From an uncultured Methanobrevibacter sp. (lineage in GTDB: Archaea; Methanobacteriota; Methanobacteria; Methanobacteriales; Methanobacteriaceae), in contig OMVY01000003.1 in the NCBI GenBank assembly GCA_900314635.1, forward strand, positions 1 to 64,000: DNA of 64,000 nt. The letters are read 5' to 3'. Both the position numbers and the translations under genes were made by a program. Positions 22,236 to 34,939 of the stretch are shown piece by piece. Numbering within the stretch: the stretch's first letter is position 1; every line of letters starts with the position of its first letter. Below the pieces are notes generated by a model that saw only the letters and a list, made by a program, of their open reading frames with translations, searched no databases and was not told the origin of the DNA.

Positions 22236-22366
22236 GTAATTCCCTTGATGATTTTGTAATTTGAAAGGCTTTGGATTTTTGTGATTTGAAAGGCTTTGTA
22301 CCTATTTCTTGTTTTATTAAGCAAAATATTTAAACATTATTGGATAAAATAAGTATAGTGATTTAA

Positions 22367-22666
22367 ATGGATATTGTAAAGAATTATGATGGCAAGGAAT
22401 TGACAATTCAAATCAAAGGCAGAATTGACACTGTGACTGCACCTGATTTTGAAAATGAAATAAATGATGAAATAGGCAAGTTTGACTCATTGATTTTGGA
22501 TTTCACTGATTTGGAATACATTTCCAGTGCAGGGCTGCGTGTTTTAATTGCAACTCAGAAGAAATTGAAACCAGAAGATATTCCAATGGTCATTAAAAAT
22601 GTCAATGATGCAATAAGTGAAATATTCAGAATGTCTGGTTTTGACAAGATTTTAAAGATTGAATGA
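22367..22666 (+). CDS. STAS-domain anti-anti-sigma-like protein (RsbV-like)
   Basis: A 99-residue single STAS domain, the family of SpoIIAA/RsbV antagonists. The phosphorylation site lies in LEYISSAGLRVL (serine near residue 58), as in bacterial RsbV. In bacteria the unphosphorylated form binds the RsbW kinase and releases its target. Here it is followed seven bases later by an RsbW-like ATPase and then an RsbU-like phosphatase, so a complete partner-switching module is encoded. Archaea lack sigma-B, so the output target is unknown. Confidence 0.88.
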   Translation: MDIVKNYDGKELTIQIKGRIDTVTAPDFENEINDEIGKFDSLILDFTDLEYISSAGLRVLIATQKKLKPEDIPMVIKNVNDAISEIFRMSGFDKILKIE

Positions 22667-22672
22667 TTCCCG

Positions 22673-23071
22673 TTGTCTTGGTTATTAGATAAAATGAACT
22701 CCATTTCCTTAAAACCCGAACTAAGCGAATTATATGAATTGAATGAATTCATTTCAAGAGTTATCAGTAAAGAGGATATTCACATTAATTTAATCGTTGA
22801 AGAAATATTTGTCAATATTGTCAATTATTCAAATGCAGAATTCATTAAGGTCGATGCCTGTTTTGAAGATTCGGTATTGACTTTGGAATTCGCTGATAAT
22901 GGATTTGAATTCAATCCATTGTTGAGGGAAAAACCAAAATCTCCAGAGACCATTGAAGATGCGCAAATCGGAGGTCTTGGAATTTATTTAGCCCGGGAAA
23001 TGGCTGATGAGTTGGATTATCATTATTGCAATGGTGAAAATCATTTGAAGATTATTAAAAAAGTGGAATAA
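22673..23071 (+). CDS. RsbW/SpoIIAB-like ATPase (histidine-kinase-type anti-sigma fold)
   Basis: This protein (132 residues from TTG 22673, or 125 from ATG 22694) is a GHKL-fold ATPase like RsbW, which in bacteria phosphorylates the STAS partner. It shows the N-box (LIVEEIFVNIVNYS), the G1 box (FADNGFEFNP) and the glycine-rich lid (GGLGIYLARE). Neither start has a clear ribosome-binding signal; translational coupling to the STAS gene seven bases upstream is likely. Its last 14 codons and stop lie in a 62-bp sequence that is duplicated in tandem right behind it. Confidence 0.85.
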   Translation: MSWLLDKMNSISLKPELSELYELNEFISRVISKEDIHINLIVEEIFVNIVNYSNAEFIKVDACFEDSVLTLEFADNGFEFNPLLREKPKSPETIEDAQIGGLGIYLAREMADELDYHYCNGENHLKIIKKVE

Positions 23072-23151
23072 TGAATGATAAATTAAAAAGCAATGGTGAA
23101 AATCATTTGAAGATTATTAAAAAAGTGGAATAATGAATGATAAATTAAAAA
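23028..23151 (+). repeat. Perfect 62-bp tandem duplication at the rsbW-like/rsbU-like junction
   Basis: Bases 23028-23089 recur exactly at 23090-23151. The unit covers the last codons of the RsbW-like gene, the TAATG stop/start overlap and the first six codons of the RsbU-like gene. Confidence 0.95.
23071..23133 (+). CDS. 20-codon relay ORF made by the 62-bp duplication
   Basis: The first copy of the duplicated unit keeps the start codon of the RsbU-like gene (ATG 23071, overlapping the RsbW-like stop as TAATG). It then runs in frame into the second copy of the RsbW-like C-terminus and stops at 23131-23133, again overlapping the real RsbU-like ATG (23133) as TAATG. It therefore encodes a 20-residue hybrid peptide with TAATG couplings on both sides. 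A role for the peptide is not implied. Its effect would be on translational coupling. Confidence 0.5.
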   Translation: MNDKLKSNGENHLKIIKKVE

Positions 23152-25031
23152 AGATAATAATCCCATTTGTTCTAATGCTGGTTTTTAATCTGGGCATTTA
23201 TTATCTAAAAGGCGGGCAAAATTTCGGTGGAGGATTAAGTGTTCATGTTGGAATACTTCTTGTTTCTGGAATGATACTTGGACCATACGGCGCACTGGGA
23301 GCAACTGTTGCAAACTTTTTATGCGACATTATAAGAGGATATGGTCCGGTTACTGCGGCAGGCTCATTTTTTTTCGGATTTGCAATATCATATCTTGGTT
23401 ATAAATTATGGTATGGATCATATAGTTTTCGACCGAATGCAACAAGACTTAGATTAAGCAATACTCGAAATGTGGTTCTATTTTTATCAATAGTTCTTTT
23501 CTGCGGTCTTTTATACTCAATACTACATGGAAAGCTGTTTTATCTTACTCTTCCAGAAACAATTTCCCTAAATTCCACTATTGAAATTAGATACTTTTTA
23601 AATTTCATTAATTCATCATTCATCTTTGGAATAATCGGAATCTGGATTTCAAACAAAATAGATTTTGCTCACATTCCTCAATCCTCAAAAGACAAGCCGA
23701 ATAAAAAATTCTACCAAATTGTAGGCGCTTTACTGGTCTTGTCAATACTAGCAACATTGATTATAGACTCAAGCGTTCAATTAAACAATTACATCGTGCT
23801 TATTGAGCTGGCCGTCCTCACTTTTTTGCTATTTGTATATTTAAAAAAGCCTATAACTTCAGACATGATTGTCAACGATTCCAAATCCATTCCGGAAGAA
23901 ATAATGAACTTGTTTCAGTTGTCATTGCTGTCTGTTATTGTTTTGGGAATTATAATCTCATATGATCATAATATCATAACTGCAATCAGTAATTTGCTGC
24001 CATTGAATGTAAATGAAGTTATAATATCCATGATGCTGCTGATGGACATCCTGCTTCTCATCTTCTTCATACCTTCATTAGCTGTTTTAAGATATGTTGA
24101 AATCAAAGTCATAGAACCGATTCTCTCATTTGCAAGAATTGAAGACTTTATTCATGAAAATGAAAAAATAGAATCTGACGGATTGGTGGAGATTTATTCA
24201 AGATATATTAGTGATGAAACGGAAATTGGAACATTGGCCCGCTCATATACTGACTTGATCAACTTCAATAATAATTATATTGAAAATATTCGTGAAATCG
24301 AAGGAGAAAAGGAACGCATAAAAGCCGAACTGAATATTGCATACAGAATTCAGGCTGCAAACCTGCCGAAGGAAGGTATTTTTAACGAATATTATTCAGT
24401 TAATGGTTATTCCCAACCTGCAAGAGAGGTTGGGGGAGACTTTTTCGATTATTATGAACTTGACGACGACCATTTAGCGATTGTGATTGGCGATGCATCT
24501 GGAAAAGGAGTGCCAGCAGCTATTCTTGCAATGATCTCCCAGGTCATGATAAAGCAAATGCTTAAAAATACTCGCGACCCTTCAGAAATCTTATATCTGC
24601 TTAATAATCAATTATGTGAAAATAATTCCGAATCAATGTTTATAACATTATGGATAGGTATTTACAATAAAACAACCAAGCAGTTAACATTTTCAAATGC
24701 AGGACATAATCCTCCTCTTATTAAAGAAAATGACGAGTTCAAATATTTGAATATTGATACCGGGCTTGTTTTAGGAATCATGGAGGACTTTGACTTTGTC
24801 CGAGAAGAAATAACCTTGAGAGAGCAAATTGTCTTATTCACCGATGGAATAACCGATGCCAGCAATACTAAAAATGAAATGTATGGTGAAGACAAACTAT
24901 TAAACTTCTTCAATGAATTTAAAAGCGATAAGGGTCCAATCATGCCTTTATTAAGTGACATCCACGAATTCACTCGTGATGCTGAGCAATTCGATGATAT
25001 GACAGTGTTATACTTGAAAATCAAGGATTGA
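23133..25031 (+). CDS. Membrane-bound SpoIIE/RsbU-like PP2C phosphatase
   Basis: A 632-residue protein. The N-terminal ~330 residues contain about eight to nine membrane segments, starting with a glycine-rich pair (GGGLSVHVGILLVSGMILGP) that resembles small-molecule-binding membrane sensors. A linker with a coiled-coil (NNNYIENIREIEGEKERIK, about 380-400) leads to a SpoIIE-type phosphatase domain (about 405-632) with PAREVGGDFFDYYE, IGDASGKGVPAAI, FSNAGHNPP, LFTDGITDA and DDMTVLYL, all metal-binding aspartates present. In bacteria such RsbU proteins dephosphorylate the STAS antagonist upon a signal. The target here is presumably the STAS protein at 22367. Confidence 0.9.
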   Translation: MNDKLKKIIIPFVLMLVFNLGIYYLKGGQNFGGGLSVHVGILLVSGMILGPYGALGATVANFLCDIIRGYGPVTAAGSFFFGFAISYLGYKLWYGSYSFRPNATRLRLSNTRNVVLFLSIVLFCGLLYSILHGKLFYLTLPETISLNSTIEIRYFLNFINSSFIFGIIGIWISNKIDFAHIPQSSKDKPNKKFYQIVGALLVLSILATLIIDSSVQLNNYIVLIELAVLTFLLFVYLKKPITSDMIVNDSKSIPEEIMNLFQLSLLSVIVLGIIISYDHNIITAISNLLPLNVNEVIISMMLLMDILLLIFFIPSLAVLRYVEIKVIEPILSFARIEDFIHENEKIESDGLVEIYSRYISDETEIGTLARSYTDLINFNNNYIENIREIEGEKERIKAELNIAYRIQAANLPKEGIFNEYYSVNGYSQPAREVGGDFFDYYELDDDHLAIVIGDASGKGVPAAILAMISQVMIKQMLKNTRDPSEILYLLNNQLCENNSESMFITLWIGIYNKTTKQLTFSNAGHNPPLIKENDEFKYLNIDTGLVLGIMEDFDFVREEITLREQIVLFTDGITDASNTKNEMYGEDKLLNFFNEFKSDKGPIMPLLSDIHEFTRDAEQFDDMTVLYLKIKD

Positions 25032-25148: not shown

Positions 25149-25204
25149 CATTTTATTAATTCTCTTTGATTTCTATTCTCATTTTGATTCATTCCCTTTG
25201 ATTT
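25149..25204 (-). repeat. Duplicated 3' end of the DUF4013 gene
   Basis: The final codons and stop of the minus-strand gene at 25179 are repeated imperfectly just beyond its stop (TTCTCATTTT..ATT..TCTTTGATTTC, period about 32). The outer copy is non-coding. Confidence 0.6.
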
Positions 25205-25937
25205 CACTATAAATTGCGCCAATACCTAGAAATTGGGTTACAAATATTAAGAAATTCAGTATGATAATCCAGATATAATTTAAAATAATATTTGGGATTT
25301 CCACATAGCTGAGTGATCCAAAAAGAAATATCGCCAGAATTATTAATGTGTAATCTTTTGTGTAATGGAGCCATCCTATAGTTTCTATGTTATTTTTAAT
25401 ACCTGAGAAATTAAAAGCGGACAATATTCGTCCTGTGTCTGCAAGCCTGGCTATGGCTATTTCCATGAAGAAACTTGTTATATAGAACAGGATGGTTCCC
25501 ACAACAACAAAAATTATTGCATGTACATGATTGTGTGAAATTAGCATATTCAGGGTATTGGGCAGGTCCAACAGCATCTCCTCCAGTTCAAAACTCGGAA
25601 AATTGAAAGGGGAGGATATCCAATCCAGAATACTTCCTTGAATGAATAAATAAACAATAAAAACAATGTAAGATTTCACTCCAAGAACCATAACCTCCTT
25701 GATCATTATCTTAGGCAATCTGACACCATTATTTATTCTATCGTGGGTGATTGTCATTCCATACCCTATTATCAATATGGAAACTGCAAAAATAATCAGC
25801 AGTATCCAGCCATCGCCTGTATCTCCATAGACATCTTGAAAAAAATTCAATATTCCATATAATAAGAGTATTAACAGGAAAAAAGGCTTGTTGTATGTGC
25901 AGTATGTCCATACTTTTTTCATTTTAACTAATGGCAT
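25179..25937 (-). CDS. DUF4013 membrane protein
   Basis: A ~252-residue membrane protein with about five to six hydrophobic segments. The diagnostic piece is MEIAIARLADTGRILSAFNF, the conserved 'R-ADTG-L-SAF-F' motif of the DUF4013 family common in methanogens; function unknown. It starts at ATG 25937 after GAGG. Two further DUF4013 proteins lie at 32674 and 33830. It faces the RsbU-like gene convergently. Confidence 0.75.
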   Translation of the reverse strand: MPLVKMKKVWTYCTYNKPFFLLILLLYGILNFFQDVYGDTGDGWILLIIFAVSILIIGYGMTITHDRINNGVRLPKIMIKEVMVLGVKSYIVFIVYLFIQGSILDWISSPFNFPSFELEEMLLDLPNTLNMLISHNHVHAIIFVVVGTILFYITSFFMEIAIARLADTGRILSAFNFSGIKNNIETIGWLHYTKDYTLIILAIFLFGSLSYVEIPNIILNYIWIIILNFLIFVTQFLGIGAIYSEIKGNESK

Positions 25938-26241
25938 GTTCAAATCCTCATTTATATATTTTTCAAATGAAGTAATAAATTTAACTAATTATGAATGGAT
26001 TTGCTATTTTTTGCTTTAATTTTTTGGAAATGTTTCGCTCTCTTTCACTGGTTTGTAATTCTTTGAATTCTTAAGAAAAGTTTTATTATTAATTTCATGC
26101 AATTGTGAGTAATTGGTAAATCTGGTTAAAAATAGAAAATATGAAATCTAGTTTTAATTGATAAATTAGGTAAAAAATAGAAAAGTGAGTTGATTATTGA
26201 ATCAACTCAAAAAATATGTGAAAAGCCTATAAAAATAATTA
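25938..26241. other. Intergenic gap, AT-rich
   Basis: About 300 bases between the DUF4013 gene and the 3' end of the DUF2149 gene. An imperfect repeat (TAAAAATAGAAAA-type, around 26130-26185) is present. The promoter of the DUF4013 gene must lie in its left part. I see no gene. Confidence 0.4.
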
Positions 26242-26583
26242 TCAGCTTTCAATCATTATCATCTTGCCTGTTTTCGGATCCTTGTAGACCTTACCCATCT
26301 CGGCATATCCTTCTCCGGAAGAATTTGAAACGTCAGGAGTCTCGTTCAGCTGCTGTCCCTGGTCTACTTCGGTAACCTGCTTCATGGCATTGATTGCATC
26401 CTGCCTCTGCTCGGGAGTGACATCTTCATTGAAGACGATTGCTTGCATGTTCCAGCTGATTACAAGGAAAACCAATAGCCCTACAGCTATGACAAGCATC
26501 GCATCCACCAGGTTGGCAACACCAGCCATAGGATCTTCTTCGTCACTCTCGTCAAAGCTGCTTTTTCGACTAAGCTTAACCAT
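26242..26583 (-). CDS. DUF2149 membrane protein, partner of MotA/ExbB-like channel
   Basis: A 113-residue protein with a short acidic N-terminus (DESDEEDPMAG), one membrane segment (about residues 22-45, LVDAMLVIAVGLLVFLVI) containing an aspartate at its start, and a hydrophilic outer domain. This is the DUF2149 family, which in methanogens travels with a MotA/TolQ/ExbB channel protein and resembles ExbD/MotB topologically, since an aspartate at the membrane edge is where ExbD/MotB carry their proton-binding residue. It lies 12 bases after the channel gene, surely in one operon. Confidence 0.8.
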   Translation of the reverse strand: MVKLSRKSSFDESDEEDPMAGVANLVDAMLVIAVGLLVFLVISWNMQAIVFNEDVTPEQRQDAINAMKQVTEVDQGQQLNETPDVSNSSGEGYAEMGKVYKDPKTGKMIMIES

Positions 26584-26595
26584 AAAATTACGCTC

Positions 26596-27228
26596 CTAAA
26601 TCTTTTTGATTCTTGAGAGTACAACATCGGTCAAAACATCAAGGTTTGCTATGTACTCGCCGTACCATCGTCTTCTGATCTTGCTTATTACATAAGCAAG
26701 GGCACCTGCGCCGATACCTACAACGGTTGTGTCGAAAGCGACGATGATAGCGTTGGATAATGTTACAATATCTCCTGTCCCTAAAGCTGCAAGACCTGGT
26801 CCCATTGGAATCAAGGTACCCATAAGACCGAGTGTAGGTCCGATACGAGTGATTATGTCGGTATAGGAGAGACGCTTCTCAAGTTTCTTCTCCCTGCTGC
26901 TGACCATCTTCTTTGCAAGTGCGATTCTGGATTCAAGGTCCATGTCGCTTGAAATGATTTCCTTCAAGTCGTTCTTCTGGGAATTTGGAATTTCTGAATT
27001 CTCTATTATATTAAGCATCTCGCTTTCACTTCCAGCATTTGAGATACCGCTTATCAGATTCTTCATCTCTGCATTTGAAATGGTCTTTCTGTGCCTGAAT
27101 TCCCTGATCAATCCTCCAAGAAGCACTACAGCTGCAACTGCAAACAAGAGCAGGAATATGATTACAGGAATCTGCAGGCTCTGACTTACCAAATCCAAAG
27201 TAGAAGTTAAAATATTGCTACCCGCCAT
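26596..27228 (-). CDS. MotA/TolQ/ExbB-type proton channel protein
   Basis: A 210-residue membrane protein with three membrane segments: one near the N-terminus (about 15-35), a cytoplasmic stretch, then two segments within TRIGPTLGLMGTLIPMGPGLAAL and NAIIVAFDTTVVGIGAGALAYVIS. These last two carry the MotA/ExbB family signature. In bacteria these channels use ion flow to drive flagella or outer-membrane transport. This organism has neither an outer membrane nor a rotary bacterial flagellum, so the driven partner is unknown. SD AAGGAGG precedes the start on the minus strand. Confidence 0.85.
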   Translation of the reverse strand: MAGSNILTSTLDLVSQSLQIPVIIFLLLFAVAAVVLLGGLIREFRHRKTISNAEMKNLISGISNAGSESEMLNIIENSEIPNSQKNDLKEIISSDMDLESRIALAKKMVSSREKKLEKRLSYTDIITRIGPTLGLMGTLIPMGPGLAALGTGDIVTLSNAIIVAFDTTVVGIGAGALAYVISKIRRRWYGEYIANLDVLTDVVLSRIKKI

Positions 27229-32673: not shown

Positions 32674-33408
32674 ATGATTTTGGATGTTTATAAGGATGCT
32701 TTTGAGTATTCCGCTCAAGACTGGACTGCTCTTGTAAAATTAGGAGTAATCAATGTTTTAGGTATGTTTATCTTTCTGCCGCTGTTTTTAACAAGCGGTT
32801 ATAATTATAGGGTAATAAAAATAGGTGTAAAAGGAATGATCAATGGCGAAGATGAATTGCCTGAGTTTGATGAATGGGTTAATATGTTTGTAGACGGCAT
32901 AAAGGTATTCATTGTCGAGTTTGCATATGCTCTGATTCCGATTGTATTGTTTTTTGCAGTATTATTCTCTGCTGCTTCCATTGGTGGAAATGCAGGCGGA
33001 ATACTCATGGCTCTTGGGATGATTGTCGCAATTGTTCTTTTCATACTGCTTCCTTTGATGGGAATAATTGGAGTAGCCAATATGGCTGAAAATGATGATA
33101 AATTCTCAGCCGCATTTGATATCAATGGAATAATTGAAATTATCAAATCCATTGGATGGCTGAATACAATTGCAACATGGATTGGCGTTCAGATTATTGT
33201 TGGAGTAATTTCAATTGTTGTTTTCCTGTTGCTTTATGCTATATTGATGTTCTTAGGACTATCTACTGCAATGGTTAGCTCCAACATAGCTGGAGGAGTA
33301 TTTGGCATAGGATTCATTCTCATAATTGCAATCTTGTGTTTCTTGGTAACTCCATATCTCAGCATTTTCCAATCCAGAGTTTATGGATTGCTGTATAATC
33401 TTCAATGA
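32674..33408 (+). CDS. DUF4013 membrane protein
   Basis: A 244-residue membrane protein with about five to six hydrophobic segments. It opens LDVYKDAFEYSAQDWTALVKLG, a pattern shared with the DUF4013 family, and has ANMAENDDKFSAAFDINGI, a variant of the family motif in which 'R-ADTG' is not kept. The last part ends YLSIFQSRVYGLLYN, again as in its neighbour at 33830. Function unknown; these proteins resemble the membrane part of glycerophosphodiester phosphodiesterase-type transporters only loosely. The GTG at 32665 is part of the ribosome-binding signal. Confidence 0.75.
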   Translation: MILDVYKDAFEYSAQDWTALVKLGVINVLGMFIFLPLFLTSGYNYRVIKIGVKGMINGEDELPEFDEWVNMFVDGIKVFIVEFAYALIPIVLFFAVLFSAASIGGNAGGILMALGMIVAIVLFILLPLMGIIGVANMAENDDKFSAAFDINGIIEIIKSIGWLNTIATWIGVQIIVGVISIVVFLLLYAILMFLGLSTAMVSSNIAGGVFGIGFILIIAILCFLVTPYLSIFQSRVYGLLYNLQ

Positions 33409-33578
33409 GCAGTTTTTATTGAATTAGTCTGATATTTATTATCAGGCTATTTAATAATTTTTCTGAAGGTTAAATCTTAAATAGTAAATTGCCTTATTTT
33501 TTGTTAATTAATTTTCTGATGATTTAATTTTGATAATTTGTTTAATTTTTATAAATGAACAAGCTAAAAGGTGATATT

Positions 33579-33701
33579 ATTATAACTTGTAATGTTTGTG
33601 GTCATTTAAACAGCCCTACTGCAGTATTTTGTGAAAATTGTGGTTCTGAGTTATCAGATAGTCCAGATTTAGACGTATTTGATGATGATGACGAATGGTG
33701 A
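33579..33701 (+). CDS. Small zinc-ribbon protein, probable ATT start
   Basis: A 40-residue protein reading (M)ITCNVCGHLN at the start, with a second pair FCENCG, so the four cysteines form a complete zinc ribbon; the tail is very acidic and ends DDDDEW. No ATG stands at the expected place, but ATT 33579 lies exactly five bases after GGTG, and initiation there yields the usual 'M-x-x-C' opening of small zinc-ribbon proteins. An alternative ATG at 33555 would add eight residues and has no ribosome-binding signal. It sits between two DUF4013 genes on the same strand. Function unknown; such domains often mediate protein contacts. Confidence 0.7.
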   Translation: MITCNVCGHLNSPTAVFCENCGSELSDSPDLDVFDDDDEW

Positions 33702-33829
33702 AATCAATAATATCTAGAAGATTAACTATAGAAAAAATAAGTAAACAATAATTATCTAAAAAGTTAAAAATTATTTCGTTATGTTTTTTGTAATGAATTT
33801 TATGATGATTTAAATTAATGGGTGATATT

Positions 33830-34939
33830 ATGGGAAGTATTACAGATATCGTTGTAGAGGGATTGAAATATCCATTTAATGATGTAAATAAATATTTAGT
33901 TTTCGGCGTCATTCAAGTAATAATGTCCGTCTTATTCATGGGGGCATTCGCTTCAACCGGATACTACTTCGTTCAGGCTTATAAAACCAGTGTTTCAATG
34001 GGTCTGGATATGATAGACTTGTCAGTTGTCTCACCAGCCATGATTATTGTATCTGCTGTTCTTTTTGTTTTGGGACTGATTGTTTTTGTTTATATTTCCG
34101 GATATGAATTCAACATTCTTAAATTTTCCATTTCAAAAAACAATGAACTTCCAGCTTTCAATGATTATGTTGGAATATTAAAAGACGGATTAAAGATGAT
34201 TGCGGTTAAAATAGCATATGCGATTTTGCCAGGAATTTTGTTTCTTCTAGGTTTGATGCTTTCTGTTAATGATAATGTAGGAGCAGCTGTAAATGTTATT
34301 GGATCACTTATTCTGGCAATATCCATAATATTCGCTATTGTTGTTGCATTTTTCCTAATAATGGCGACTGCACGCATGGTGGATATGGGAACACTTCGCT
34401 CTGCATTTGATTTTAGAGAGATTTATGAGTTGATTTCCAATATGGGGGTTGTTCAATATGTGGGAATATTGATTTTCCTGGCTATTGCAATAGCCATTAT
34501 AAATTTAGCTGCCTCAGCTATATTTGAAATGATAGGATTTGCTGTTGCATTGGTTCTTCCAACTGCTTTGGCTTCTGTATTTTTAGTAATGATCTTAAGC
34601 AGCCTGCTGATTGATTCATTTACTAGCTTGGCTACTTACAGGGTTTACGGATCCGTTTATAATGTGGCTCAGGGCAATTATGATTTTAATGAATCTGAAA
34701 CCGAGGACTCTCAAGATTCTGAAGACACCTCTGCTGCAGATGAGAATGAAGTTGCAGATTCTGAAGAAGCTGCTGCTGAGGATGTTGTAGATTCTGAAGA
34801 AGCTGCTGCTGAGGATGTTGTAGATTCTGAAGAAGTTGTGGCTGTGGATGATGATGTTGTAGTCTCTGAAGAAGATGATGTTTCAGAATCTGAGGATGAT
34901 GTGTCTGAAGATAAAGAAGCAGAAGCAGATGAAAAATAA
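33830..34939 (+). CDS. DUF4013 membrane protein with long acidic repeat tail
   Basis: A 369-residue protein. Residues 1-285 are a DUF4013 membrane region of about six segments with the hallmark TARMVDMGTLRSAFDFREI and the ending SLATYRVYGSVYN. From about residue 288 on the chain is almost only Glu, Asp, Ser, Ala and Val, with direct repeats of DSEEAAAEDVV encoded by a duplicated 33-bp unit around 34757-34822. The tail is expected to be disordered. Start ATG 33830 lies five bases after GGTG. The role is unknown. Confidence 0.8.
   Translation: MGSITDIVVEGLKYPFNDVNKYLVFGVIQVIMSVLFMGAFASTGYYFVQAYKTSVSMGLDMIDLSVVSPAMIIVSAVLFVLGLIVFVYISGYEFNILKFSISKNNELPAFNDYVGILKDGLKMIAVKIAYAILPGILFLLGLMLSVNDNVGAAVNVIGSLILAISIIFAIVVAFFLIMATARMVDMGTLRSAFDFREIYELISNMGVVQYVGILIFLAIAIAIINLAASAIFEMIGFAVALVLPTALASVFLVMILSSLLIDSFTSLATYRVYGSVYNVAQGNYDFNESETEDSQDSEDTSAADENEVADSEEAAAEDVVDSEEAAAEDVVDSEEVVAVDDDVVVSEEDDVSESEDDVSEDKEAEADEK

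Follow-up and report, generated by a model that had tools for sequence, protein, structure and literature searches.

A bacterial-type partner-switching module in a methanogenic archaeon and its possible role in nonribosomal-peptide synthesis and export

Results

Partner-switching genes at the locus

We analysed a 64,000-nucleotide stretch (the window) of an uncultured Methanobrevibacter sp. (assembly GCA_900314635.1, contig OMVY01000003.1, positions 1 to 64,000), a methane-making archaeon of the gut or rumen, in which three intact genes on the + strand at 22367-25031 encode a STAS protein, an RsbW-like kinase and a membrane SpoIIE phosphatase. The STAS-domain switch protein (RsbV-like; 22367..22666, +, 99 aa) has candidate phosphoserines S53 and S54 in the motif YISSAGLR, and was recognised by both Pfam (PF01740, E 9e-18, 64.4 bits, cut-off 22.6) and NCBIfam (TIGR00377, 70 bits, cut-off 53.45). 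It is followed by a GHKL serine kinase (22694..23071, +) matching the Pfam model PF13581 HATPase_c_2 (E 8.5e-15, 55.3 bits, cut-off 27.4) and, in a profile comparison, the RsbW structure 6m36 in the PDB (E 3.5e-5). This protein has 125 aa when read from the ATG common to relatives, as opposed to the longer frame in the list of open reading frames, which starts at TTG 22673. The third gene (23133..25031, +) encodes a SpoIIE-type PP2C phosphatase of 632 aa (PF07228, E 4.1e-45, 154.5 bits, cut-off 25), laid out as an N-terminal multi-helix membrane domain (approximately residues 1-342), a linker helix (364-410) and the phosphatase (approximately 412-632). A putative archaeal BRE/TATA-like promoter element, agcaaaatatttaaac, was located by eye upstream of the STAS gene (22320..22335, +). 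A similar AT-rich block precedes STAS in most relatives, likewise by eye, in a comparison of the regions between STAS and nonribosomal-peptide synthetase (NRPS) genes that includes duplicate loci of one genome.

Judged by predicted gene content, this is a complete RsbU/RsbV/RsbW-type partner-switching set, as a sequence-only reading of the window had proposed together with the phosphorylatable serine motif. The SpoIIE protein contains four catalytic motifs that include the metal-binding aspartates (VGGDFF, IGDASGKG, VLFTDGI and FDDMT), the N-box, G1 and G2 of the free kinase are kept in 27 of 27 sequences, and STAS residues S53, S54, G56, L57 and R58 are kept in 30 of 30 (window included in both counts). 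Widespread loss of catalytic residues in relatives, which that reading had named as grounds for abandoning it, was thus not observed for STAS or the free kinase; for SpoIIE the window motifs are intact, but second copies in some relatives fail the motif patterns. Matches to the more specific equivalog models were below cut-off, both for the kinase against RsbW (NF003144, 20.9 vs 145 bits; TIGR01924, 14.5 vs 155) and for STAS against the sigma-F protein SpoIIAA (TIGR02886, 54.2 vs 114.75 bits). The phosphatase part of the AlphaFold2 model resembles Rv1364c (3ke6; Z 24.1, root-mean-square deviation (rmsd) 2.5, 214 aligned) and SiaA (6k4e; Z 22.7, rmsd 3.1, 237 aligned). SpoIIE and STAS each have one match in the whole 2.29-Mb genome, the window genes being the sole clear copies. 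HATPase_c_2 has one match above the cut-off, the window kinase, and one weak match, a domain fused to an exporter on contig C29.

Gene spacing and a 62-bp duplication

The overlaps between the genes that the sequence-only reading described are absent from the window, where gaps of 27 nt (STAS/kinase) and 61 nt (kinase/SpoIIE) separate them; overlaps are common in relatives, in 13 of 24 STAS/kinase and 15 of 27 kinase/SpoIIE pairs (window counted). The SpoIIE start lies 61 nt past the kinase stop because of a tandem duplication, in which two perfect copies of a 62-bp unit (23028-23089 and 23090-23151, +) comprise the 3′ end of the kinase gene and the start of SpoIIE. The ATG of the first copy (23071) opens a 20-codon frame across the gap, with TAATG where this frame ends and SpoIIE truly starts. 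The duplication may be real, phase-variable or an assembly artefact, and the decoy frame may preserve TAATG coupling.

Membrane domain of the phosphatase

The AlphaFold2 model of the whole SpoIIE protein (predicted local distance difference test score, pLDDT, 66, a modest confidence) has six predicted N-terminal helices, with further membrane helices after them. The sequence-only reading had likened this region to small-molecule-binding membrane domains. Models of energy-coupling factor (ECF) S-components match SpoIIE N-termini in 7 of 23 (PF07155) and 5 of 23 (QueT) cases, and 5TMR_LYT matches one of 23. Among N-termini scanned singly, one of ten exceeded the PF07155 cut-off (L040, 32.0 vs 26.7). 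The window's own domain had no S-component match in the Pfam scans. A profile search of the N-terminal SpoIIE alignment against the PDB gave no match up to E 5, and the Foldseek and VIA-align 2 lists for the whole model were filled by phosphatases. A ligand-sensing input via the SpoIIE membrane domain is plausible on these sequence comparisons.

Distribution and co-occurrence with nonribosomal-peptide synthesis

SpoIIE has a patchy distribution: 84 of the 138 family genomes have it, among them 5 of the 19 from the genus of the window, and the other 13 genomes of the phylum gave no match (84 of 151 in the phylum-wide search, all within the family). Its presence follows that of the NRPS Condensation domain: among the 138 family genomes 72 have both, 12 SpoIIE only, 6 NRPS only and 48 neither (Fisher p 5e-19), and within the genus the corresponding numbers are 5, 0, 4 and 10 (p 0.011), although these p-values overstate independence because the genomes are related. 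The 4'-phosphopantetheinyl transferase (PPTase) gene, which is usually single, lies within 2.5 kb of a SpoIIE match in 43 of the 72 genomes that have both SpoIIE and PPTase among the matches listed (the SpoIIE of G033, for example, falls outside these).

Gene neighbourhoods in relatives

We compared 40 SpoIIE stretches that had been picked by genome before their neighbours were inspected, a few genomes contributing two loci. They contain STAS (29), the free kinase (29), NRPS (17), PPTase (15), an exporter of the MATE family fused to a kinase-like domain (9) and GH3 enzymes (4), and 28 of the 40 contain at least one of NRPS, PPTase and the MATE fusion. Conservation of neighbours, suggested earlier as a check, is seen in these 28 loci but not beside the window module. 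Gene orders vary and include STAS-PPTase-SpoIIE-kinase, NRPS-MATE-STAS-kinase-SpoIIE and divergent NRPS/STAS.

The genome of the window encodes one NRPS, of 3173 aa, on contig C29, with three condensation-adenylation-thiolation (C-A-T) modules and a terminal reductase, followed directly by a MATE fusion protein of 577 aa. Its one PPTase gene is on the same contig as the module, 143 kb distant. In G056, from another genus, NRPS, MATE fusion, STAS, kinase, SpoIIE and PPTase form a single locus, with identities to the window genome of 89% (NRPS), 85% (MATE fusion), 79% (STAS), 69% (SpoIIE), 64% (kinase) and 52% (PPTase). A SpoIIE tree, from which L070 was dropped (same gene as L094) and frames below 580 aa were excluded, groups the window protein with G056, G058 and G098 (99/93), apart from the sequences of its own genus in the tree. 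The SpoIIE genes of these three genomes are all beside a PPTase gene, one of them also beside NRPS. The grouping with sequences of another genus suggests lateral transfer, followed or accompanied by separation of the window module from NRPS. On contig C29 of the window genome, the NRPS start is immediately preceded by a 37-bp repeat in 4.6 copies (L091 5086-5269).

Other loci place the module in different company. Two g9 genomes (L063 and L064) have the order SpoIIE, STAS, GH3, RimK-type ATP-grasp, ABC, ABC and GH3, with the kinase next in L064, the one of the two stretches that reaches far enough; L130 has an ATP-grasp gene ahead of its fused MATE; and one module is interrupted by a thiamine pyrophosphate (TPP) enzyme gene. 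SpoIIE and kinase form one polypeptide beside a second SpoIIE in L037 (7574-9943) and L038 (10349-12559), and four phosphatase motif patterns are unmatched in these fusions. The GH3/ATP-grasp and fused-kinase loci would agree with a more general switch that governs how small molecules or peptides are made and exported.

An exporter with a fused kinase-like domain

Scanning named genomes for the fused domain gave 46 loci, of which 45 are in records titled as methanogens and one is in a record titled as Ruminococcus. A fused MATE is present in 43 of them, with NRPS directly upstream on the same strand in 36 of the 43. The sequence extends beyond NRPS on its upstream side in 22 loci, and in 16 of these STAS is the next gene there. 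Counting frames of at least 400 aa among the matches listed, at least 65 of the 138 family genomes encode the fusion, and NRPS is found in 63 of these 65. The exporter of the window genome matches PF01554 MatE above the cut-off (E 3.9e-23). An AlphaFold2 model of its G056 homologue (pLDDT 86.5, predicted template modelling score, pTM, 0.82) aligns with the MATE structure 5c6n (Z 36.7, rmsd 3.2, 434 aligned), and the VIA-align 2 list for the whole model consists of MATE/MOP transporters only.

Homology between the fused domain and the free kinase is indicated by hhalign (97.6%, E 4.3e-12), with weak Pfam matches as well; in a search against PDB sequences up to E 1, no GHKL protein was matched. 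The N-box is kept in 41 of 43 proteins and G1 in 43 of 43, but the ATP-lid GGLG of the G2 box is present in 0 of 43, with a conserved xNIxxL segment in its place in 41 of 43. These counts include L137, the last stretch of which contains letters X; alignment A4 comprised 31 of the 43 proteins and alignment A5 comprised 23, without L137 and close duplicates. From these motifs we read the fused domain as a receiver rather than a kinase, and the absence of the ATP-lid glycines suggests a partner switch acting on the transporter.

In G019, which we take to be M. ruminantium M1 since its gene clusters resemble those reported for that strain, MATE and kinase-like domain occupy two overlapping frames of 486 and 92 aa (L147 12818-14553), apparently through a frameshift. 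An NRPS-adjacent MATE in G042 (L048 9370-11052) has a C-terminal domain that lacks the N-box too, and an intact fusion is encoded elsewhere in that genome (L149). A Ruminococcus metagenome-assembled genome (MAG) has an NRPS gene (54% GC) followed by a MATE fusion (L146), and neither gene has a STAS, kinase or SpoIIE match as its neighbour. A kinase-SpoIIE-STAS module lies elsewhere in the MAG (L156); the gene after it, of 215 aa, looks by eye like a degenerate kinase domain.

Discussion

A predicted switch for peptide synthesis and export

To our knowledge, archaea lack bacterial-type alternative sigma factors, and the sequence-only reading had concluded that the output of the module must be something new, such as a transcription factor B (TFB). 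Neighbourhood, co-occurrence and phylogeny point elsewhere, to nonribosomal-peptide synthesis and export, and we consider it somewhat more probable than not that the module controls the synthesis and, more specifically, the export of a nonribosomal peptide. In the proposed mechanism the free kinase would phosphorylate STAS at S53/S54 and hold it inactive, until a small ligand sensed by the SpoIIE membrane domain causes the phosphatase to dephosphorylate it. Free STAS would then swap partners, the likeliest pair being the free kinase and the C-terminal kinase-like domain of the MATE exporter encoded after NRPS. In this way peptide export would be gated post-translationally and without a sigma factor. 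The phosphorylation cycle, the ligand, the binding of STAS to the exporter domain and the direction of the effect are what we infer here.

More tentatively, the same idea may be taken a step further. STAS could bind the glycine-less kinase-like domain on MATE, with an S-component-like sensor phosphatase gating peptide secretion post-translationally, and the presence of the same receiver on exporters encoded after NRPS, GH3 and ATP-grasp genes could make this a general output for small-peptide export in methanogens, possibly with a peptide signal that senses itself. If true, transporters would join the targets of partner switching, and a bacterial sigma-factor switch would have been re-used in a domain of life that has no such sigma factors. 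The system would also offer testable handles in the sensor, the phosphorylation site and an exporter domain expected to bind unphosphorylated STAS.

Several observations, in addition to the relatedness of the genomes, weigh against a role in peptide synthesis and export. Twelve of the 84 SpoIIE genomes have no Condensation match, five of the 84 have none of the three partners (NRPS, PPTase and fused MATE), and six genomes carry NRPS without SpoIIE. The window module itself is not beside NRPS, which is on another contig, and is 143 kb from PPTase, while some modules adjoin GH3, ATP-grasp or ABC genes instead. Furthermore, 15 NRPS genomes lack an intact fusion among the matches listed, and the fusion therefore cannot be the sole output.

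Alternative explanations

The NRPS pathway might instead be regulated transcriptionally, the kinase partner being an archaeal transcription factor (a TFB paralogue or a repressor) that acts at NRPS and PPTase promoters. Classical partner switches do act on transcription, STAS is often divergent from NRPS so that the two have one intergenic region in common, a TetR-like gene was seen near PPTase in G056 (by eye only), and regulation of NRPS expression has been suggested in the accessible text of Leahy et al. 2010 (PMC2812497). Nevertheless, we saw no constant transcription factor neighbour in the compared loci, in which most neighbour clusters are unannotated. We also considered a regulatory motif common to the regions between STAS and NRPS, but by eye only a TATA-like block near STAS could be seen. 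We regard transcriptional control as unlikely, if still a serious contender. Alternatively, the module could respond to stress or nutrients in general and act on several targets, its linkage to NRPS and PPTase reflecting joint horizontal transfer into the same islands and not function. The patchy distribution (84 of 138 genomes), the grouping of the window SpoIIE with sequences of another genus, the isolation of the window copy, and the modules found by GH3 or ABC genes or split by the TPP enzyme gene all agree with such a switch. Joint transfer accounts poorly for the 43 of 72 genomes in which PPTase is no more than 2.5 kb away, for a kinase-like domain fused to an NRPS-linked exporter, and for locus arrangements that differ, as would fit repeated re-association; we judge a general switch to be quite improbable.

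The isolation of the window module also allows that it has become delinked and now serves another target in this genome, such as a nearby surface or membrane protein. A DUF4013 gene (25179-25943) is convergent with the module, and its cluster (c4) recurs, with 14 members in 11 of 41 stretches. All same-clade relatives of the SpoIIE gene adjoin NRPS or PPTase, which makes delinking very improbable in our estimation. The DUF4013 neighbour as partner was rejected as weak, since the genome contains five such genes, three of which share a 10-kb part of this contig (25179-25943 and about 32758-34525). Nearby on the - strand (26242-27228), a DUF2149 gene is paired with a MotA/TolQ/ExbB proton-channel gene as an archaeal ExbB/D-like pair.

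Comparison with known systems

The window module has the same three families and catalytic residues as the RsbU-RsbV-RsbW and SpoIIE-SpoIIAA-SpoIIAB systems of Bacillus, from which it differs in falling short of the equivalog cut-offs and in its archaeal host. Partner switches with other outputs exist in Pseudomonas, where a membrane PP2C phosphatase of the SiaA-D and HsbR-HsbA-HsbD systems removes the phosphate from a STAS protein that acts on something other than a classical sigma factor, and the output is a diguanylate cyclase or flagellar and biofilm control. SiaA is a close structural match to the window phosphatase (6k4e, Z 22.7), but its output is not a peptide exporter. For the exporter, a close parallel may be 4z3n, which we take to be ClbM, the MATE exporter of the colibactin precursor, an NRPS product. 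It matches the archaeal model (Z 30.8, rmsd 4.2, 404 aligned) in the MATE part only (model residues 6-455 of 575), to which the archaeal protein adds the kinase-like domain.

Receptors of the S-component fold joined to PPM/SpoIIE-type phosphatases have been described as prevalent in archaea in the available portion of one account (PMC11109136), and the likeness to the proteins studied here lies in an S-component-like membrane domain joined to a SpoIIE-type phosphatase. Those fusions use the 5TMR family, whereas here PF07155 and QueT match 7 and 5 of 23 N-termini and 5TMR_LYT one; a pathway or a link to NRPS is not mentioned for them in that portion. As of 2017, what methanogen NRPSs do, how they are regulated and what they might produce was described as unclear or not understood, in the consulted sections of PMC5467289.

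Closest to our proposal are the clusters mru0066-0071 and mru0512-0516 of M. ruminantium M1, listed in the accessible parts of Leahy et al. 2010 (PMC2812497) as encoding a serine phosphatase, an anti-sigma antagonist, an anti-sigma kinase, PPTase, NRPS and MatE, for which sensing and NRPS regulation were already proposed. The same parts occur here, but in M1 they lie inside the NRPS/PPTase clusters whereas the window module is apart from both. A kinase-like domain on the exporter is not mentioned in those parts of the paper, possibly because it is split off in G019 as a separate, overlapping 92-aa frame. Our literature searches, which did not extend to subscription papers, brought up no description that we recognised as a MATE-kinase fusion. 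The NRPS link is known as a proposal and, on the sequence comparisons above, the window copy would be a new member of this group, while the exporter as the target of the switch is possibly a new idea.

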